Shown here one piece after another: positions 217-61,899 of a stretch of DNA of 64,000 nucleotides (positions are counted from its first letter, which is position 1; each line of letters begins with the position of its first letter). Below the pieces are notes generated by a model, which was not told the DNA's origin, did not search any database, and saw only the letters and a program-made list of their open reading frames with translations. Source of the stretch: Desulfobacterales bacterium. Lineage in GTDB: Bacteria > Desulfobacterota > UBA8473. The translations under genes and the position numbers were made by a program. The stretch spans positions 1 through 64,000 of the forward strand of contig JACQWO010000068.1 in the NCBI GenBank assembly GCA_016209225.1, in the 5' to 3' direction.

Positions 217-1707
217 TCAGGGGGAACTAATTAGTATCTTATGCATGCAGTTAATTAAATCCTTTACTCCAACGGTTGCTATGCCGGTCATGGTATCAGA
301 TATGCCATAGGGAATTACCAGCTCGTCATTATGGATGATCGCGCCGCAGGTATAAACGACATTCGGAACATACCCATCCCGAGCTCCCTCATGTGGCTCA
401 AGTAAAGGCTCTTCCAGGTGGGCGATGATCTTTGCCGGGTTTTTAAGATCGAGCAGTATAGCTCCGATGCAATACCTTCGCATGGGCCCCACGCCGTGGG
501 TGAGGACTATCCAGCCTTCATCCGTTTCCAGGGGTGAGCCGCAGTTGCCGATTTGAAAGAATTCCCAGGGACGTGTTGGCTTCTGGATGATTTCGGACTC
601 GTGCCAGAAATGGATATTGTCTGAGAACATGATATGATTATTTTCACCGTCCTGGCGTGAGAGCATGACATAGCGACCGTCAAGTTTACGCGGAAAAAGT
701 GCTATGCCCTTGTTTTGTACGCATTTGCCGTTGATGGTTATAACTCTAAATTTGATAAAATCCTTTGTTTCAATAAGCTGCGGAAGAATTCTAACGCTGT
801 TATATGCCGTATAGGTCGCATAATAGGTAATCTCACCATTGTCATCAATAAATTCCACGAATCTGGCGTCTTCCATGCCCCTGCATTCGTTTTTCGAAAC
901 AGGGAAGATAACCCGTTCGGATATTCGGTGATCGGGTCGGAAATTCACCTCATAATTGGAGTTGGCAAGCCAGCAAATGATCTTAAAGGTTTCGTTTTGA
1001 CGCTCCTCAGAGAAAACGGTTTTTCCACGAAGCGCTTTAATTTTCTCTATTAATTCATTATAGGTGAAATCCTCGGGCAGCTGGCCAAAAATATGAGCGG
1101 TTACCTCGTTGCATGCCTCCATTTCGTTGAGCTTCAACTCGAAGGTATGCCGGTTGTATGTCGGATTTAAATGAACGTCCGGCGTTTCAACATATTTGCT
1201 GATCGGGTCGAAGTGAAACGTATTGTGTTGGTCAAGGACGCCGCTGCGAAACACCATAGAGGAGACATGGCCTTCGCCTGTTGCCCGCAGACTCATGATA
1301 AAGCGCAAGCTGCCTTCGTTCAGATGGCTTTGATCAGGGTGGGGCACTATTGAAGGGTTGAAAAGGGCAGCCGATTCAATGGAGTATTCCATGGTAAAAT
1401 AGGCCCCAATCAGAGCCCTTTTGGTCTCGCTGAGCACGGTATCCCTAGGAACACAATCTTTTACCTCATTCAGGTGACACTCAAAAACGCGTCTGATGTG
1501 TTTGTGCCGCTTTGAAAAATCAAGCATTATTTTTTTAAGAAGATTTTCGGCCGTCGTATCAGGCAAGTCCACTATGCGTTGAATGATTTTAGGTATGCGC
1601 TGCATGTCCTGAGGAATATGAAGTCGGGTTATAACACGTGAAGTGTCCCTCAGAATTTTTTTCTTTTTCCTTTTTACTTTCAGCTTTAGATACTTTTTTG
1701 CGTCCAT
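217..1707 (-). CDS. GH130-family glycoside phosphorylase, long form
   Basis: This 496-residue protein is a five-bladed beta-propeller of glycoside hydrolase family 130, whose known members phosphorolyse beta-mannosides to mannose 1-phosphate and a shortened acceptor. The family motif with the catalytic acid Asp is seen as GMEDARFV near residue 279, with GNCGSPLETDEGW and GYVPNVVYTCG further on. It carries about 95 extra N-terminal residues, starting with a very basic stretch (KLKVKRKKKK), not present in the 313-residue paralogue next to it. There is no signal peptide, so it should act in the cytosol. It is the last gene of a four-gene operon with a second GH130 and two glycosyltransferases. 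The preferred linkage (beta-1,2 or beta-1,4) cannot be read from the sequence. Confidence 0.85.
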   Translation of the reverse strand: MDAKKYLKLKVKRKKKKILRDTSRVITRLHIPQDMQRIPKIIQRIVDLPDTTAENLLKKIMLDFSKRHKHIRRVFECHLNEVKDCVPRDTVLSETKRALIGAYFTMEYSIESAALFNPSIVPHPDQSHLNEGSLRFIMSLRATGEGHVSSMVFRSGVLDQHNTFHFDPISKYVETPDVHLNPTYNRHTFELKLNEMEACNEVTAHIFGQLPEDFTYNELIEKIKALRGKTVFSEERQNETFKIICWLANSNYEVNFRPDHRISERVIFPVSKNECRGMEDARFVEFIDDNGEITYYATYTAYNSVRILPQLIETKDFIKFRVITINGKCVQNKGIALFPRKLDGRYVMLSRQDGENNHIMFSDNIHFWHESEIIQKPTRPWEFFQIGNCGSPLETDEGWIVLTHGVGPMRRYCIGAILLDLKNPAKIIAHLEEPLLEPHEGARDGYVPNVVYTCGAIIHNDELVIPYGISDTMTGIATVGVKDLINCMHKILISSP

Positions 1708-1729
1708 ATCACTGTGTCCTTAATGTCGT

Positions 1730-1829
1730 GTAAATACTCAGGTGTTTAGGCTGAAGGCTGTAGTAGGCTAATAGTCTACAGGCTAATAGTCTATAGCCTA
1801 AACTTCAGTCTATCCACCCGAGTATTTAC
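1730..1829. repeat. Palindromic intergenic element, GTAA(A/C)TACTCAGGT-ended
   Basis: The left end GTAAATACTCAGGTG (1730-1744) is mirrored by CACCCGAGTATTTAC (1815-1829) with one mismatch. The interior is made of short words (aggctgaaggct, ctaatagtct) that also pair across the element. It lies between two GH130 genes and shares ends and filler words with elements at 22794, 38877 and 40913. Confidence 0.75.
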
Positions 1830-1898
1830 CATCAATTCATGAAACTTATTGCGGATTTCCTGATTTGCAACAAGCTGGTTATGATATATGATAATAAG

Positions 1899-2840
1899 CT
1901 ACAGCGGCGGCCGGGAATCGGACAAACAAAGTTGAACCAGGTCATCAATCAATGCCGTGCCGGCGCACATAACCGTATCAGCGCCGCCCCAGTATATTTT
2001 TACCGTTCCGTCGTCTTCAGGAACAGCACCGCATGTAAAAACAACATTGGGCACATAGCCGCTCACCTCCCAGGGATCCTCGGGTTGCAGTATCCACTGA
2101 TCGGAAACGCCGATGATTTTTGCCGGATCATTAAGGTCGTGCAGGGCCGTGCCAAGGCGATACACCGCGCCAGCCATGGTCTTAAACACTCCATGGTAAA
2201 TATGCAGCCAGCCCTTGTCGGTTTTGAAGGGCGGTGCGCCGGGCCCGATTTTCATTTCATCCCAGTGATAGGGAACCGGCTTCATAATCACCCGTGAATC
2301 GCCCCAGTGAACCAGGTCAGGGGAATAGGAAATCCAGATCGACCAGGGTGAAATTTCTGAATGGGGCCGGTCAAGACGCGCATACCGGCCACCGAACTTT
2401 ACGGGAAAAATGACCACGTTGCGAAGGTCGGCCTGGGTTATTAGCGCAATGCGTTCAACTTTTCTGAAATCCTTGGTGCGCGCAAGGGCAATCCGAACGC
2501 CGTGACGGGAATAAACGCTGTAGGTAAGCAGGTAGTCGTCCTCTACCGGGCAGATCCTCAGGTCTTCGATCCCAAACTCCTCATATTCCGCAAAAATGCC
2601 GTCCTTTGCCGGTGTGAGAAAGGGTTCGGAATGAACCGTGAAGGAAAAACCATCATCGCTGTCTGCCCTGCCAATGATCGAGCGCCCGTTGTGCCTGTGG
2701 GATCTGAAAAGCATAATGTAGCGGCCGCCATGCTTGACGATGCCGGCATTGTGGACCGTGGCTACAGGGTAAGGGACATCGTCTTTTGTGAGAATGGGGT
2801 TTTTTTTATAACGTTTTATGATAGAGCCTTTATTAGTCAT
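1899..2840 (-). CDS. GH130-family glycoside phosphorylase, short form
   Basis: A 313-residue GH130 five-bladed propeller without the N-terminal extension of its downstream neighbour. GIEDLRI near residue 91 carries the presumed catalytic acid Asp. KIGPGAPPFKTDKGW, HIYHGV and GYVPNVVFTCG are further family signatures. Enzymes of this size phosphorolyse mannooligosaccharides, or run in reverse to build them from mannose 1-phosphate. No export signal is seen. Two divergent GH130 proteins in one operon suggest different chain lengths or linkages of one mannoside. The start is the ATG at 2838-2840. A palindromic element separates it from the next gene. Confidence 0.87.
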   Translation of the reverse strand: MTNKGSIIKRYKKNPILTKDDVPYPVATVHNAGIVKHGGRYIMLFRSHRHNGRSIIGRADSDDGFSFTVHSEPFLTPAKDGIFAEYEEFGIEDLRICPVEDDYLLTYSVYSRHGVRIALARTKDFRKVERIALITQADLRNVVIFPVKFGGRYARLDRPHSEISPWSIWISYSPDLVHWGDSRVIMKPVPYHWDEMKIGPGAPPFKTDKGWLHIYHGVFKTMAGAVYRLGTALHDLNDPAKIIGVSDQWILQPEDPWEVSGYVPNVVFTCGAVPEDDGTVKIYWGGADTVMCAGTALIDDLVQLCLSDSRPPL

Positions 2841-2907
2841 AGTATCGTGTTGTGGTTCAAGGGTTATTAATATAAGCGGTTAAGCCACGGAAAGCTGGTC
2901 CGTTGCT

Positions 2908-4260
2908 TTAGGTTCTTTCGAAATCATCCTCAAAGCGTTCGATATCATCCTCCCCGAAATAATCGCCGGTTTGCACTTCAATGAAGCGCACATTTTCAGA
3001 ACCCTGGTTAGCGATTCTGTGCAGGACGCCCTTGGGGATGTCTACGGACTGCCCCGGCTTAACAGCAACCGTTTTATCATCAACAGTTATTTGTGCCCTG
3101 CCCTCAATGATATACCAGTGTTCGGACCGATGGCGATGCCGCTGCAGGCTCAGACGCTTGCGGGGGAAAACAACGATTTCTTTGCTTTTGTAAGTATCAT
3201 TATCCGCCAGGATTTTATAATATCCCCAGGGTCGGTGCTCTTCGGGTTTTGTCTTTTCCAGAACCGTTTCATAGACCTGAATATATTCTTCAACCATGCG
3301 GTTGACTGTAAAATGCTGTTCAACATGGCTGCGGCAGCATGCTCGGTCAATATCTTTTATATGTGCAACAGCGTCTATCGCCTCATCCACAGTTGTTACA
3401 AGAAAACCGTTTCTGCCGTCTTCGATAATTTCGGGCATGCTCCCCTTGTTAAAGGCGATCACCGGGGTACCGCAGGCCATGGACTCTATAACGGACAGGC
3501 CGAAAGGCTCATTGAAGTTTATGGGATGCAGAAGGGCGTATGCCTTTCCAAGCAGATGGTTGCGCTGATCCGGTCCGACGCTGCCCACATAGACCGCATT
3601 GTTGCTGTCCAGGTGCGGTTCGACGTACTGGTGATAGTAGGCTTCATCCTGGATGATTCCCGCCAATATCAGCTTTTTATTGCATGCCTTGGCAATTTCA
3701 ATGGCATCCCGTGCGCCTTTGTCATGGTGGATGCGCCCGAAAAAGAGCAGATAGTCTTCCGGCTCAGGCTGAAAATCAAACTGCTTTATATCAATACCGT
3801 GATGGATGGTTTTGATATAGTCAATATCCGGAGACCGGTCGGCATCGCTGATGGAAACATAGAACACTTTGCCATTGTATTTTTTGTAAACCGGCAGAAT
3901 CCCGGGCGATGAAAAGCCGTGAATGGTGGTGACAAACGGGGTAGTGATAAGGCCGGTATAGGTCAAGGGCAAAAAGTCAAAATTGTTATGGATAATGTCA
4001 AAATCTTCCGCATGCTCAAACAGTTCCGAAATGTGCAGGCACTCCCATACTTTTGGCATAATGGAGCGGTCTTCTTCATAACCCCGGCCGCAAACGGCAT
4101 GCAGTTTGCCGCTTGTTTTTGAATCACCGGTCGCAAAAAGGGTAACATTATAGCCTCGCGATACCAGCCCCTCGGTCAAAAGGGAGACCACGCTTTCCCA
4201 CGGACCATAGTGTCTCGGCGGCGTGCGCCAGGCAATAGGCGAGAGCACTGCAATGCGCAT
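2908..4260 (-). CDS. GT4 glycosyltransferase fused to a mannose-6-phosphate-isomerase-type cupin
   Basis: Residues 1 to about 335 are a GT-B glycosyltransferase of family 4: an N-terminal half with PPRHYGPWE and a nucleotide-sugar half with FGRIHHDKGARDAIEIA and EPFGLSVIESMACGTPV. Residues about 340-445 are a cupin of the type II phosphomannose isomerase family, beginning RPWGYYKIL and containing LSLQRHRHRSEHW and VDIPKGVLHRI. That cupin usually ends ManC/GMP proteins that make GDP-mannose. Joining it to a glycosyltransferase is unusual and links sugar supply to transfer, but isomerase activity is inferred. The gene starts 2 bp after the upstream glycosyltransferase stops, so the two are probably co-translated. 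Confidence 0.82.
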   Translation of the reverse strand: MRIAVLSPIAWRTPPRHYGPWESVVSLLTEGLVSRGYNVTLFATGDSKTSGKLHAVCGRGYEEDRSIMPKVWECLHISELFEHAEDFDIIHNNFDFLPLTYTGLITTPFVTTIHGFSSPGILPVYKKYNGKVFYVSISDADRSPDIDYIKTIHHGIDIKQFDFQPEPEDYLLFFGRIHHDKGARDAIEIAKACNKKLILAGIIQDEAYYHQYVEPHLDSNNAVYVGSVGPDQRNHLLGKAYALLHPINFNEPFGLSVIESMACGTPVIAFNKGSMPEIIEDGRNGFLVTTVDEAIDAVAHIKDIDRACCRSHVEQHFTVNRMVEEYIQVYETVLEKTKPEEHRPWGYYKILADNDTYKSKEIVVFPRKRLSLQRHRHRSEHWYIIEGRAQITVDDKTVAVKPGQSVDIPKGVLHRIANQGSENVRFIEVQTGDYFGEDDIERFEDDFERT

Positions 4261-9227: not shown

Positions 9228-9233
9228 GCTTGA

Positions 9234-9403
9234 GTGGCCCAGGATTCGAGGAGTCAAGGGGTCAAGTGAAAACAGCTATCCATTCTTATCCTTGAACCCT
9301 TGAATCCTGGACCCCTTGAACCCTTGTGGCCCAAAAAAGATCAAACTAAAGTCTTCACCTGAAAACGAGGGTTTTTCTCCGATTCCCCGAGTGGGACAAT
9401 GAG
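9234..9403. repeat. Inverted-repeat element with conserved 60-bp tail, copy 1
   Basis: The arms AGGATTCGAGGAGTCAAGG (9241-9259) and CTTGAACCCTTGAATCCT (9291-9308) are imperfect inverted repeats made of the words ggattcaagg/ggttcaagg, bordered by two GTGGCCC heptamers. From 9344 to the apgM start runs a tail (AACTAAAGTCTTC, then CGAGGGTTTTTCTCC, then CGAGTGGGACAAT) found again at 25743-25803. The tail directly abuts the apgM start codon, where no good Shine-Dalgarno is visible. Confidence 0.65.
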
Positions 9404-22793: not shown

Positions 22794-23265
22794 GTAACTA
22801 TTCAGGTAGATAGGCTGAAGGCGGAAGGCTGACGTCTATAAAACATCTAGCAAGGCACGAATCAAGCCATTCAAGACCTTCTCGGTTTCTACGACCTTTG
22901 GTTCAATCAGAGATGAATTCTGAACACACAAGAATCCCAAACGCTTCGACAAATTTAGTTGATAATGCAGTTCCCTCAATGACCCGAAAGCTATATTGAG
23001 AAATCTGAGATAATCTGCCTCGCTGTCACGAGCGCAACCCTCCACGATGTTAGAAGGAATTGAAACTGCTGCCCGCCGTATTTGAGCAGTCAGACCAAAC
23101 AACTCTTCTTTCGGAAACCCTGCGGTTACCCGATAAACCAACATCGCTACTTCATCAGCCAACTCAAATGCCCGAAGTTTTGTGTGATCACGCATGTATT
23201 TCTAAAAGCCTTCCGCCTTCCGCCTTCAGTCTATCTACCTTCAGCCTATCTACCTGAGTAGTTAC
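22794..23265. mobile_element. Palindromic element carrying a four-helix-bundle gene
   Basis: The left end GTAACTATTCAGGTAGATAG then GCTGAAGGCGGAAGGCT (22794-22831) is the inverted complement of the right end (about 23214-23265), which finishes CTATCTACCTGAGTAGTTAC and contains one extra internal word. Between them is one gene for a four-helix-bundle protein. The short elements elsewhere in this window have the same ends without a gene. The element separates two signalling genes that otherwise read as one run, ending 6 bp from the HD-GYP stop. No target-site duplication is evident. Confidence 0.7.
22836..23195 (-). CDS. Four-helix-bundle protein, 23S rRNA intervening-sequence type
   Basis: This 119-residue protein fits the S23/four-helix-bundle family (related to Avd of diversity-generating retroelements). 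It begins LRAFELADEVAMLVYRVT and has FPKEELFGLTAQIRRAAVSI followed by PSNIVEGCAR, the family signature. Members are encoded in 23S rRNA intervening sequences and at scattered loci. Their molecular role is not settled, though nucleic-acid binding is suspected. The ATG has no clear ribosome site, and its upstream sequence is the arm of the palindromic element. It sits on the same strand as the flanking signalling genes. Confidence 0.9.
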   Translation of the reverse strand: MRDHTKLRAFELADEVAMLVYRVTAGFPKEELFGLTAQIRRAAVSIPSNIVEGCARDSEADYLRFLNIAFGSLRELHYQLNLSKRLGFLCVQNSSLIEPKVVETEKVLNGLIRALLDVL

Positions 23266-29582: not shown

Positions 29583-29660
29583 CGTGAATCGTGAATCGGG
29601 AATGGGTTTTATCCGCCTATGGTGGATTCACGATTCACGACTCTCGATTTACGATTTACG
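29583..29660. repeat. Inverted repeat of cgtgaat words, copy 1
   Basis: CGTGAATCGTGAATCG (29583-29598) pairs with CGATTCACGATTCACG further right, followed by cgatttacgatttacg. The loop-side sequence AATGGGTTTTATCC recurs in the copy at 51349-51416. The last codons of the DUF167 gene (RKS, stop) are read from this element. Confidence 0.65.
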
Positions 29661-38222: not shown

Positions 38223-38918
38223 ATGAATACAAAAGAACCGGGCAGTAGGCCCAAAAAAGGCAAGAAAGTAGAGACAGGGAGTCAGGTTACAAAAGAGGAG
38301 GGAAAAGTTGTAGAGAAAGGAGAAAAGGAGGAAGAGAATGAAGACCGAGAAGAAGAATTAAAAAAACAGCTTCAGGCCAGAGAGAAAGAGGCAACAGAGA
38401 ATTTCGACAGATTGCTGCGAACACAGGCCGAATTTGAGAATTATAAAAAAAGGATGGAGAGAGAGAGGACAGATACAATAAAGTTCTGTAATGGGAACCT
38501 TATAATGGATATGTTGCCTATCGTTGACAACCTGGAGATGGCATTACAGCATGGGGAAAATTCTAGTCCCAATAATTCTCAACCCCTGGTTGAAGGTGTT
38601 GAGATGGTCTTAAACCAATTAATGAAGAGTCTAGAAAAATTCGGTGTTACCAGTTTTTCTTCCGTTGGAGAAAAATTTGACCCCAATCGGCATGAAGCAA
38701 TGATGCAAGTTGAAAGCGATGAGCACGAGGCTAATTTCGTTATTTCAGAGTTCCAGAAGGGCTACTTTTTAAATGATAGGCTTCTTAGGCCGGCAAAGGT
38801 TACAGTTACTGCACCACGTGTAAAATCAGGTACAGAGAATGGGAATATAGTGAATGAGGATAAAACAACAACTAGCGTAACTACTCAGGTAGATAGACTG
38901 AAGGTGGAAGACTGTTAG
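38223..38918 (+). CDS. grpE: Nucleotide exchange factor GrpE
   Basis: Releases ADP from DnaK. The protein has a long charged coiled coil (residues about 25-85), then LLRTQAEFENYKKR and the beta-domain pattern FDPNRHEAMMQ and GYFLNDRLLRPAKVTVT. Its 231 residues run past the normal family end: the last 13 residues (VTTQVDRLKVEDC) are encoded by a palindromic repeat starting at 38877. AAGGAAG precedes the ATG. Confidence 0.93.
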   Translation: MNTKEPGSRPKKGKKVETGSQVTKEEGKVVEKGEKEEENEDREEELKKQLQAREKEATENFDRLLRTQAEFENYKKRMERERTDTIKFCNGNLIMDMLPIVDNLEMALQHGENSSPNNSQPLVEGVEMVLNQLMKSLEKFGVTSFSSVGEKFDPNRHEAMMQVESDEHEANFVISEFQKGYFLNDRLLRPAKVTVTAPRVKSGTENGNIVNEDKTTTSVTTQVDRLKVEDC

Positions 38919-38957
38919 GACACTTCAGCCTTCGGTCTTCAGCCAAACGGCCTGTTT
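38877..38957. repeat. Palindromic element fused to grpE 3' end
   Basis: The left end GTAACTACTCAGGTAGATAG (38877 on) is intact and lies inside the grpE frame. The right side (cagccttcggtcttcagcc, then a degenerate cctgtttatc) pairs with gactgaaggtggaagact. It belongs to the same family as 22794-23265. Confidence 0.7.
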
Positions 38958-39005: not shown

Positions 39006-40922
39006 ATGGGAAAAGTAATAGGGATTGATTTAGGGACCACTAATTCATGTGTAGCTATTATGGAGGGTGGAGACCCCAAAGTTATTACTAATGCAGAAGG
39101 TAGTAGAACAACACCGTCTATGGTTGCATTTACAGACAATGGGGAGAGGTTGGTTGGGCAAATAGCCAAAAGACAGGCAATAACCAACCCTGAAAATACC
39201 GTGTTTGCTGTCAAGAGGCTTATTGGCAGGAAATATGATTCAAAAGAAGTCCAGACGGACATACCCAATCTTCCGTATAAGATTACGAAAGGAAAGAAAG
39301 GAGATGCCCAGGTTAATATAAGAGGCAAAGATTACAGTTCAGCAGAGATATCCGCAATGATCTTACAGAAGATGAAGCAGACAGCAGAGGACTATCTCGG
39401 TGAAAAGGTAACTGAGGCGGTAATTACCGTCCCGGCATATTTTAACGATAGTCAGCGCCAGGACACAAAGGATGCCGGAAGGATTGCTGGATTGAATGTT
39501 TTGAGGATAATAAACGAACCGACCGCTGCATCCTTAGCTTATGGTCTTGACAAAAAGAAGGATGAAAAGATTGCTGTATTTGATCTGGGGGGAGGAACGT
39601 ACGATATATCAATCCTTGAGATTGGGGATGGCGTCTTTGAAGTAAAGGCGACCAACGGTGATACCCACCTGGGTGGAGAGGACTTTGACATCAGAATTAT
39701 TGATTACTTAGCTGCTGAGTTTAAGAAAGATCAGGGGATTGATCTGAGACAAGACAAGATGGCACTGCAAAGATTGAAAGAGGCGGCGGAAAAGGCAAAA
39801 CATGAACTATCCACATCCACGGAGACAGATGTCAACCTGCCCTTTATAACAGCAGATGCCAGCGGTCCTAAGCATCTTAATATTAAACTTACACGGGCAA
39901 AGCTGGAGCAATTAGTGGATGACTTGATTGAGAAGGTAGTACCCCCATGTATGACTGCCTTGAAAGATGCTGGACTAAAACCCTCTGACATCGATGAGGC
40001 TATCCTTGTGGGTGGAATGACCAGAATGCCAAAGGTTCAGCAAAAAGTAAGAGAAATATTTGGCAAGGAGCCTCATAGGGGTGTAAACCCGGATGAAGTA
40101 GTTGCTGTTGGGGCAGCCATACAGGCCGGTGTTCTGAAGGGTGAGGTGAAAGATGTACTCCTCCTTGATGTTACACCTCTTTCCCTGGGTATCGAAACCC
40201 TGGGAGGTATATTCACCAAACTCATTGAGAAAAACACTACCATCCCTACCAAGAAGAGCCAGACCTTCTCTACGGCAGAAGATAACCAACCGGCAGTGAG
40301 TATCCATGTGTTACAAGGGGAGCGTGAAATGGCACAGTACAACAAGACGCTTGGCAGATTTGAATTGCTTGGGATTCCCCCTGCCCCCCGGGGAATGCCC
40401 CAGATCGAGGTAACCTTCGATATCGACGCTAATGGAATCGTCCATGTGTCTGCCAAGGATTTAGGAACCGGCAAAGAGCAATCAATAGAGATTACTGCCT
40501 CCAGCGGACTTACAGAAGAAGAGATCAAGAACATGATAAAAGAGGCAGAGGTACATTCCGAGGAGGACAAAAATAAGAGAGATTTGGCTGAAGCTCGAAA
40601 TCAGGCCGATACCCTTATTTATACTACAGAAAAAACCTTGAAAGAGCATGGAGACAGTGTTGATGCAGCTGAAAAACAAAACATAGAGGACGCTATTGCA
40701 AAAGTAAAGAGAGAGATGGAAGGTTCGGATTCAAATGCCATCAAAAATGCCTGCGAAGAACTAGGCAAAGCATCCCATAAATTGGCAGAAAGTATGTATG
40801 CCAAGGCATCTCAAGCTGCAGGCGCTGATTCCTCAAAAACACAGACTGATGAAGATGCGGGGAAACCCTCAGATGAAAATGTGGTTGATGCCGACTTTGA
40901 AGAGGTAAAGGACGATAAATAG
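39006..40922 (+). CDS. dnaK: Chaperone DnaK (Hsp70)
   Basis: The 638-residue Hsp70 has [56 protein letters not shown], the linker [15 protein letters not shown] and a C-terminal acidic tail ([11 protein letters not shown]). AGGAGG lies before the ATG. It is the last gene of the CIRCE-controlled operon. Its stop codon TAG is shared with the start of a repeat. Confidence 0.98.
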
Positions 40923-40969
40923 GCTGAAAGCTTTTATAGCCTTCAGCCTAAACACCTGAGCTGTTTACT
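40913..40969. repeat. Truncated palindromic element after dnaK
   Basis: TAGGCTGAAAGC pairs with gccttcagccta, and the right end CACCTGAGCTGTTTAC matches the family end. The left terminal motif is lost in the dnaK sequence. The next gene starts immediately after it. Confidence 0.6.
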
Positions 40970-42721: not shown

Positions 42722-42915
42722 GTAACTAATTCAGGCACAAAGAGACAAAGGCACATAGGCACAAAGTTGCGGGAATACGATCGGAATGCAGGACACAACC
42801 TGTCCAAATACCGCTTTGTAAACATCTTATAGGAACTTAAGCAACTCATTCTCTTCATATCTCTCGACTTTGTGCCTTTGGTGCTCTGTGCCTTTGTGCC
42901 TACCTGGGTAGTTAT
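42722..42915. repeat. Palindromic element with ggcacaaa filler
   Basis: The ends GTAACTAATTCAGG (42722) and CCTGGGTAGTTATT (to 42915) match the family. The arms consist of repeated ggcacaaag words (42735-42767, 42868-42901), unlike the ctgaagg words of other copies. About 100 bp of unrelated sequence fills the centre, without a gene. Confidence 0.72.
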
Positions 42916-50612: not shown

Positions 50613-51356
50613 ATGGTGGCAAATAAGAAAGAACGCCTTGACAAACTATTGGTTGATCGAAGCTTAGTCCAGAGCAGGGGAAGGGCAAGCGCCCTAATTA
50701 TGGAAGGTAAGGTCTCTGTAAATGGTATCAGGGTTGATAAGGCAGGCACAAAGGTATCAACTGATTCTTCCCTGAAATTAAAAGAGAATGACATACCCTA
50801 CGTGAGTCGTGGGGGAGTAAAGTTAGCCTGTGCCCTGGATGAATTTAAGCTGGAGGTAAAGGACAAGGTAGCCCTTGACATAGGGGCTTCTACCGGGGGT
50901 TTTACTGACTGTTTATTGCAGAGGGGGATTAAAAAGGTCTATGCCGTTGACGTAGGCTATGGACAACTCGCATGGAAAATAAGGCAGGACCCCCGGGTGG
51001 TTAGTCTGGAACGCAGGAATATTCGTTATCTGGATACAAAAGAGATCGATGAAAAAGCCGATCTCGCTGTAATAGACATCTCATTCATATCCCTCACCAA
51101 GGTACTAACCAAAGTAACTGAACTGATAAAAGAAAAAGGCTATATGATAGCCTTAATCAAACCCCAATTTGAAGCAGAAAAGGGGGAAGTAGGTAAAGGT
51201 GGAATAGTTAAGAACCCTGAAAAACATAGGCAGGTAATTGAAAAGATAGAAGGATTCGCCTCCCTTCATGATCTAAAGGTACTAGGACTTATTGAGTCCC
51301 CTATATTGGGAGCCGATGGAAATAAAGAGTTTCTGATATACCTAGCTAAATCGTAA
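50613..51356 (+). CDS. tlyA: TlyA-family rRNA methyltransferase
   Basis: An N-terminal S4 RNA-binding domain (ERLDKLLVDRSLVQSRGRAS) and an FtsJ-like methyltransferase domain with the SAM motif ALDIGASTGGFTDCLL, then LAVIDISFISL and LIKPQFEAEKGEVGKGGIV. 247 residues. TlyA 2'-O-methylates rRNA cytidines and affects capreomycin sensitivity in other bacteria. The start is 8 bp after ppdK. Its last residues (AKS, stop) are encoded by a repeat. Confidence 0.95.
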   Translation: MVANKKERLDKLLVDRSLVQSRGRASALIMEGKVSVNGIRVDKAGTKVSTDSSLKLKENDIPYVSRGGVKLACALDEFKLEVKDKVALDIGASTGGFTDCLLQRGIKKVYAVDVGYGQLAWKIRQDPRVVSLERRNIRYLDTKEIDEKADLAVIDISFISLTKVLTKVTELIKEKGYMIALIKPQFEAEKGEVGKGGIVKNPEKHRQVIEKIEGFASLHDLKVLGLIESPILGADGNKEFLIYLAKS

Positions 51357-51416
51357 GTCGTAAGTCGTAAATATCGTAAATAGGATAAAACCCATTTACG
51401 ATTCACGATTCACGAA
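51349..51416. repeat. Inverted repeat of cgtaaat/cgtgaat words, copy 2
   Basis: TCGTAAGTCGTAAGTCGTAA (51351 on) pairs with TTTACGATTCACGATTCACG (ending about 51415). The centre GGATAAAACCCAT is the reverse complement of the centre of copy 1 at 29583-29660. Confidence 0.65.
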
Positions 51417-61486: not shown

Positions 61487-61503
61487 TGAAGCCTCCTAAA
61501 CTT

Positions 61504-61617
61504 TAACTACTTAGGTTCAAAGTTCCAATGTTCACGGTTCAAGGTTAGAGAGCGATGAAGATGAAGAGCACAAAGTAGCCAGCCGTGAACCGTTGAACCT
61601 GACAACCTGAGTAGTTA
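61504..61617. repeat. Palindromic element with ggttcaa filler
   Basis: TAACTACTTAGGTT (61504-61517) mirrors AACCTGAGTAGTTA (61604-61617). Inner words (gttcacggttcaagg with cgtgaaccgttgaacc) pair too. It lies between the divergent yebC and nadA genes. The rest of the 61487-61899 gap shows nothing recognisable apart from the nadA ribosome site. Confidence 0.75.
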
Positions 61618-61899
61618 CCTTTATTGAATACAAGTATATATATCACAGAATCTTGTGTTTTAAAAGAAAAAACATTTGGATACTATCACTCGAAAGGAGG
61701 GGGAAGTCAGTAGAACTGATTAAGACAGAACTCCTTATCCAGGGCTTCGGAGTTTTTGAATTGACAAAAGCCCGTATTTAAGATAACTTTAACTTGATGG
61801 TACAGGATTTCCATTTTTAAATAACTTTAGGCACTTAACTTGATTTCAGAATACCACACTAATCCTGATGATGGACCACAGACAAATAGAGGGAGTAGG

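Follow-up and report, generated by a model that had tools for sequence, protein, structure and literature searches.

Four-helix-bundle proteins of the S23/IVP family have long been known only from inserts in rRNA genes, and the mobility of those inserts and the role of the protein have been an open question since the early 1990s (PMC4990558). The locus described here raises that question in another setting, with an S23/IVP gene lying inside a dispersed intergenic palindrome of a Desulfobacterales genome. Is the gene a passenger of the palindrome, its motor, or part of a unit of its own? We find that the S23/IVP gene sits between inverted heptad arms in bacteria and archaea, and that here it is also enclosed in transposable palindromes. 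Throughout, the window denotes the whole stretch of 64,000 nucleotides that was analysed.

The gene-carrying element and its relatives in the window

The element at 22794..23265 (minus strand) is a gene-carrying member of what we call family A, with IS66-type ends, GCTGAAG arms and an IVP gene. Its left end, GTAACTATTCAGGT (22794..22807, plus strand), differs at one position from the family end GTAACTACTCAGGT, which returns exactly on the minus strand as the right end (23252..23265). The left arm consists of the words GATAGGCTGAAGGCGGAAGGCTGA (22804..22846, plus strand; inverted repeats I1, I3 and I14), the right arm carries the same words inverted (23198..23251, minus strand), and the only ORF enclosed by the ends encodes 119 aa (22836..23195, minus strand). 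As RNA, the element folds at -171.5 kcal/mol (z -6.0). The first-pass annotation had assigned the enclosed gene to the S23 family, and profile searches make that membership clear, with scores of 110 bits against PF05635 (cut-off 33.8) and 111.8 bits against TIGR02436, "four helix bundle protein" (cut-off 24), both over the curated cut-offs; PDB 2GSC is a related structure (E 1.7e-24). The protein also has weak profile similarity to Avd of diversity-generating retroelements (NF033474, E 7e-6), a homology noted previously (PMC10053308). That score of 26.3 bits is far below the cut-off of 80 and no reverse transcriptase was seen near the element, where the flanking ORFs are, by reading of their translations, a PAS/histidine-kinase-type gene and a response-regulator-type gene; the protein does not classify as the retroelement accessory protein Avd.

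Among the closest known systems are the rRNA intervening sequences (IVSs) with S23 ORFs, whose ends form a stem, which RNase III excises, and for which mobility, and a role of the ORF in it, are open hypotheses (PMC4990558). The 23S rRNA IVSs of Salmonella, Leptospira and Coxiella share with the present elements the gene family, the complementary long-stem arms, the occurrence with or without the ORF, and a mobility long suspected (PMC4990558), and IVP ORFs have likewise been reported in 16S and 23S inserts of CPR bacteria (PMC11270868). Stem-forming complementary arms surround the S23 ORF of the window element as well. As far as the gene family is concerned, the earlier link to stem-flanked intervening sequences holds. 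The differences lie in location and anatomy: the present units are intergenic rather than at rRNA helix tips, with no rRNA gene at any of 40 IVP loci checked (the window locus included), their arms are tandem heptads, and in this genus their ends are of the IS66 or ISL3 type and their duplications 8 bp long.

Matches to GTAACTACTCAGGT with up to three mismatches number nine in the window, against 3.16 +/- 1.61 expected and above all 100 shuffles. The six loci that had been listed as sharing all or part of the ends, with arms of tandem words differing between copies, are borne out. Besides the gene-carrying copy, they comprise a gene-less element with both ends and the GCTGAAG word (1730..1829); an element with the same word whose right end is lost (38877..38952, plus strand), present in two sister species (G002 and G003) and absent from two others (G001 and G004); a degraded GCTGAAG remnant (40913..40968) with a degenerate right end, ACCTGAGCTGTTTAC, at about 40954-40968; a gene-less element of the GCACAAAG word with both ends in degenerate form (42722..42915); and a gene-less element of the GGTTCAA word with both ends (61503..61618), which retains a remnant of the IVP gene start, agagcgATGAAGAT, comparable to that of locus L013 below. 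The remnant at 40913 was rejected as a clean empty-site case because a neighbouring start codon is also missing in the sister species. Three further palindromes had escaped the first list. Two are GTRARTC heptad palindromes, at 29583..29660 (without A ends) and 51352..51414, and the third, at 9233..9316, is built of GGATTCAAG, the word of an ISL3-type family B, although no B ends were found there.

Mobility and the IS66- and ISL3-type ends

Pattern searches, on which all genome-wide copy counts rest, returned 196 matches to GTAACTACTCAGGT with at most one mismatch in the 3.1-Mb genome (96 forward, 100 reverse), and none for a reversed-pattern control. Fetching the stretches around these matches and pairing the ends found there yielded 63 distinct family-A elements. 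When k flanking bases were compared on either side of them, the sole strong excess was at k = 8, with a mean of 4.21 matching positions against 2.67 +/- 0.17 (z 9.1); the duplication is perfect in 15 of the 63 and agrees at seven or more of eight positions in 19. No duplication is recognisable at the window element itself (flanks tgctcata and cttacttc). Its gene has a 94.6% relative at a different, non-orthologous place in sister species G003.

Nine elements have exact empty sites, detected when their flanks, fused around a single duplication copy, were looked for in four species of the same genus. For example, the site of the element at 333 in L032 is empty in G001 (99% over 212 bp), and further cases are L217 (in G002 and G004), L195 (in G001) and L222 (in G002 and G003). 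Family-A copies have thus transposed with 8-bp target duplications, and the mobility proposed for them from the window alone stands.

The ends point to the enzyme that would have moved them. An IS66 transposase gene in G128 (L459) is flanked by GCAACTACTCAGGTCA and GTAACTACTCAGGTCA, which match GTAACTACTCAGGT with 0 and 1 mismatches, and two further IS66 elements, L455 in G211 and L456 in G164, have GTAACTATTCAGC ends and perfect 8-bp duplications. Because its terminal repeats match those of autonomous IS66-family elements elsewhere in the phylum, family A is an IS66-type miniature family. Within this genus we found no intact IS66 element with exactly the family-A ends. The one IS66 copy of the genome itself (L042, G000:C7, about 1223-3049) has a single ORF, ends GTAACTTCTCACGAATTTGAAG and a diverged end sequence, GTAACTTCTCACGA; as a single copy with only 11 of 14 end positions like those of family A and no visible duplication, it is a doubtful candidate for the partner. 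An IS200/IS605-like TnpA gene lies near this element. Among pattern-positive loci of G018, G024 and G055, the ones read in search of an autonomous element proved to be GGTTCA-word family-A palindromes with no transposase.

In their GTAACTAYTCAGG ends, 8-bp duplications and missing transposase gene, family-A elements resemble known IS66-family (ISBst12-like) miniature elements. They differ in that they carry IVP genes, or descend from carriers, and in an interior of heptad arms whose several unrelated words have been exchanged at fixed ends. REP and REPIN sequences, which depend on RAYT transposases, are likewise dispersed short intergenic palindromes reliant on a protein-coding relative; the present elements are distinguished from them by DDE-type ends, 8-bp duplications, and a gene that is located within the palindrome and encodes no Y1 transposase.

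Family B tells a parallel story with other ends. L032, L034 and, in G016, L075 carry IVP genes between GGATTCAAG arms, with outer ends GGTTCATCTCCCAAAGAGTTGG and GGTTCTTCTCCCAATTAGTTGG (end form GGTTCTTCTCCCAATTAGTTG), and the 8-bp duplications of L032 and L034 are perfect (AAATTAAT and ATATTTTT). These ends match those of an ISL3-family element in G003 (L338; ends GGTTCTTCTCCGAATTAGTTG and GGATCATCTCCAAATTAGTTG, duplication ATAAATTT). Family B is therefore an ISL3-type miniature element, with both ISL3 terminal repeats and the 8-bp duplication present. It shares these traits with other ISL3-family miniature elements and differs from them in carrying a full-length IVP gene between GGATTCAAG arms.

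Gene loss within elements can be followed at single sites. The L034 site is gene-carrying in G000 (the genome of the window) and exactly empty in G002, and in G001 it holds a copy of 97 bp that lacks the gene but shares the duplication; at the L032 site, the copy in G003 measures 167 bp and again shares the duplication but lacks the gene. Similarly, most family-A copies are without a gene and many short ones hold gene remnants. The short GGTTCA copies L013 and L006 keep the first IVP codons (ATGAAGATTGAACGGTTTGAAG...) followed by a deletion, which identifies them as decayed relatives of gene-carrying copies, in agreement with the earlier proposal that the short copies are non-autonomous kin.

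It is very improbable, in our judgement, that the palindromes are host RNA structures, that is, selected intergenic terminators or RNase III sites that are exchanged since any strong hairpin would serve, with IVP as an RNA-binding host factor. Their intergenic positions and strong RNA folding would fit such a function, as would the replacement of one heptad palindrome by an unrelated one at the same spot (the L206, L374 and L384 sites). The exact empty sites in healthy sister species, the target duplications and the residence of a gene inside the element all argue against it.

Heptad arms and IVP genes across phyla

If the ends belong to transposases, what belongs to the gene? The first-pass annotation expected these ends to mark four-helix-bundle genes, an expectation that has to be given up. 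The genome has 11 PF05635 matches, two of them weak, and A ends enclose the window copy (L035) along with two truncated genes, L036 and L038; most IVP genes lie between other arms, an outcome that the annotation itself had named as telling against its view of the ends. The family-A interiors themselves fall into three main word classes, GGTTCA, GCTGAAG and GCACAAAG, each with its own IVP lineage: L036 for GGTTCA, the window gene and L038 for GCTGAAG, and a partial gene in G003 (L153) for GCACAAAG. Proteins of different classes are only about 27-45% identical in full-length comparisons, inside identical ends.

To score arms, the upstream and downstream flanks of each gene were compared as inverted repeats, with position-matched intervals of the same loci as controls. 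In a set from the phylum, 75 of 92 IVP genes exceed the 95% level of the controls and 66 the 99% level (medians 36.5 versus 19). An independent set gave 60 of 73 above the 95% level and 55 above the 99% level; it derives from 80 loci retrieved by a conserved IVP motif as the best matches to one query, and is thus biased to one half of the family. Its loci come from Bacteroidota, Desulfobacterota, Nitrospirota, Acidobacteria, Planctomycetota, Verrucomicrobia, Chloroflexi, Clostridia, Cloacimonadota, Proteobacteria, Nomurabacteria and Methanophagales archaea, among others. Together, 135 of 165 IVP genes are armed relative to position-matched controls, and the best internal period of the arms is 7 in 103 of these (56 of 75 in the phylum set, 47 of 60 in the independent one) and 8 in most others; the controls have no period-7 preference. 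Heptad arms are, accordingly, general anatomy of the S23/IVP gene family in many phyla, and it is the inverted heptad arms, not the ends, that go with the gene.

The arm words vary between elements (GTAAATC, GTTAGCT, AGTGACT, AGTCCAA, GTGAGAA, GTTGCTT, TTTAGGG-like and others), and both arms of one element share them. Words are common to 27 of 38 protein pairs that are at least 60% identical and to about 1% of more distant pairs, which argues that word and gene are inherited together. On the strand reading inward, G exceeds C in 109 of 118 IVP units, with a mean skew of 0.48. For IVP pairs at least 79% identical, mostly at non-orthologous places, dN/dS is 0.02-0.14 (counting method, own script); the protein is under strong purifying selection and is therefore functional.

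These data bear on a simpler account, in which IS66- and ISL3-type miniature elements captured IVP genes by chance, the arms are products of palindrome decay, and the gene is a passenger with a host function. Ends and duplications suffice for mobility, most copies are gene-less, and purifying selection on the IVP proteins would be expected of such a passenger. We consider this account doubtful, as no fewer than three IVP lineages would have had to be captured separately in A ends, and another in B ends. In many phyla, moreover, IVP genes that lack these ends are flanked by heptad arms of the same kind; the arms therefore belong to the gene unit and not to the miniature elements.

In the literature that we searched, which was that available without subscription, no description was found of heptad-armed IVP units or of IVP elements outside rRNA. 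Heptanucleotide repeats are the commonest class of 5-11-nt repeats in many genomes, reported with no link made to IVP (PMC4679880), and 18 IVP genes have been recorded near cas genes (PMC3936711). The heptad-arm rule provides a concrete anatomy for most IVP genes tested, in many bacterial and archaeal phyla, and predicts the binding target of the protein; it also ties a very common, unexplained annotation ("four helix bundle protein") and the unexplained heptanucleotide-repeat excess of bacteria to one kind of element.

Individual loci add some detail. One 2.1-Mb genome (G010) has fourteen mostly broken or partial IVP genes and looks like a burst followed by decay. In L128 (G036:C3:197099-200413), an IVP gene with a broken reading frame is accompanied by two sets of GTTTTGA heptad arms, either nested or in tandem. 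The IVP-unit arms of L151 (G003:C124) read AAACCCTAAACCCTAAACCC, the plant-type telomere repeat, which is probably a coincidence of the heptad rule.

Flips, swaps and a proposed two-layered reading

In this genus, single sites can be found occupied, gene-less, inverted, swapped or empty, which amounts to a set of natural experiments. A third family is formed by the GTRARTC heptad palindromes, with 79 pattern matches at about 30 places (control 0), no known outer ends and, in a sample read by eye, no evident target duplication. The one at 29583-29660 occupies the same site in four species and is absent from two species of another genus; its heptads differ between species and its arms match within each, so that these arms evolve in concert. 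Another, L031, carries an IVP gene. At the same site in G003 (L071, where an N gap adjoins the element on one side) lies a unit 94% identical and inverted relative to both flanks, and at that exact point G001, G002 and G004 have a mini heptad palindrome, ATCGTGAGTCGTACTTACGA, which is either an insertion target or a deletion remnant.

Interiors also differ within fixed boundaries. The L188 site, with the duplication AGATAAAC throughout, has a GGTTCA interior in G000 and G002 and a GCACAAAG interior in G003 and, in the opposite orientation, in G004. The L190 site, where the duplication is likewise shared by the swapped copies, has GCTGAAG in G000 and G001, GCACAAAG arms with CAGTTAC arms nested in them in G002, and is empty in G004. 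L112 (G016) and L149 (G053) also share a site. The IVP unit of L112 has GTTCGGC arms and is itself enclosed by arms of GCGGATTTCGG, which is the word found at L149, where the IVP belongs to another lineage; L351 is among the nested-arm cases. Direct evidence of IVP units inserted at palindrome centres amounts to three or four cases. Such observations suggest, short of proof, an entry of IVP units into palindromes already in place and an exchange of interiors from one hairpin to another. The swaps could instead be repeated insertion at hot spots, and the main caveat, above all for flips and swaps, is that the comparisons rest on metagenome-assembled genomes of varying quality.

We propose that these are transposable palindromes of two layers, a reading to which, with all its steps, we give a probability of roughly 60%. 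The outer layer would be the IS66-type terminal repeats (GTAACTAYTCAGG, 8-bp duplication), moved in trans by an IS66 transposase located elsewhere or formerly present. The inner layer would be the IVP unit, an S23/IVP gene between inverted tandem-heptad arms that can turn every strand, DNA or RNA, into a hairpin. IVP units may settle in the middle of palindromes that were there before, namely miniature elements with IS66 or ISL3 ends, heptad palindromes of other kinds and, outside this genus, the tips of rRNA helices; this would explain how one set of ends comes to enclose different IVP lineages. Within and between the hairpins, slippage during replication and template switching may then keep the arms matched, invert the unit, swap interiors and delete the gene, and deletion would leave miniature copies for the transposase to spread. 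The IVP protein putatively binds its own G-rich/C-rich heptad stem, favouring persistence or copying of the unit. Mobilisation in trans by IS transposases is the well-supported part of this scheme; entry at palindrome centres and a putative cis-acting, hairpin-binding role of IVP are its least certain parts. The gene-carrying, gene-less and empty states at the one L034 site count in its favour, and the lack of an exact-end IS66 in the genus and of a visible duplication at the window gene copy count against it.

The protein had earlier been cast as the mobility factor. The data do not support this role: the ends and the 8-bp duplications are those of IS66- and ISL3-type transposases, and gene-less copies predominate. 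A fuller version of that idea, in which IVP is an autonomous IVS-like element whose protein would bind to the heptad hairpin and guide the unit into hairpin tips, by way of DNA or of an RNA/cDNA intermediate, with the IS ends secondary, strikes us as quite unlikely. It would accommodate the tight gene-arm linkage in many phyla, the co-inheritance of word and gene, the strong purifying selection, the weak relationship to Avd, and the mini palindrome that alone occupies the exact L031 position in three species. A four-helix bundle has no known catalytic activity, however, the gene-less IS-ended families clearly use 8-bp-duplicating transposases, and units with arms alone yielded neither a duplication nor a defined target. 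More broadly, and tentatively, IVP with its heptad arms might constitute a distinct class of mobile hairpin across Bacteria and Archaea, in which putative recognition of the G-rich/C-rich hairpin by the protein would drive copying into other hairpin tips without a transposase, and rRNA IVSs would be copies that landed in rRNA helices; we hold this to be a minority possibility beside the two-layered reading.

Finally, other repeats occur at or near some of these sites. L358 (G003:C217:1200-1630) is a long direct array of GTCAGTG heptads that is not palindromic, at a spot that has a family-A element in G000 and a GTGAATC palindrome in G002, an intergenic hot spot for heptad repeats. The flanks of L392 and L397 (query 1150-1200 and 1600-1717) contain one more dispersed repeat, about 50-60 bp long and present in many copies in G001-G004, that has no relation to the heptad palindromes.
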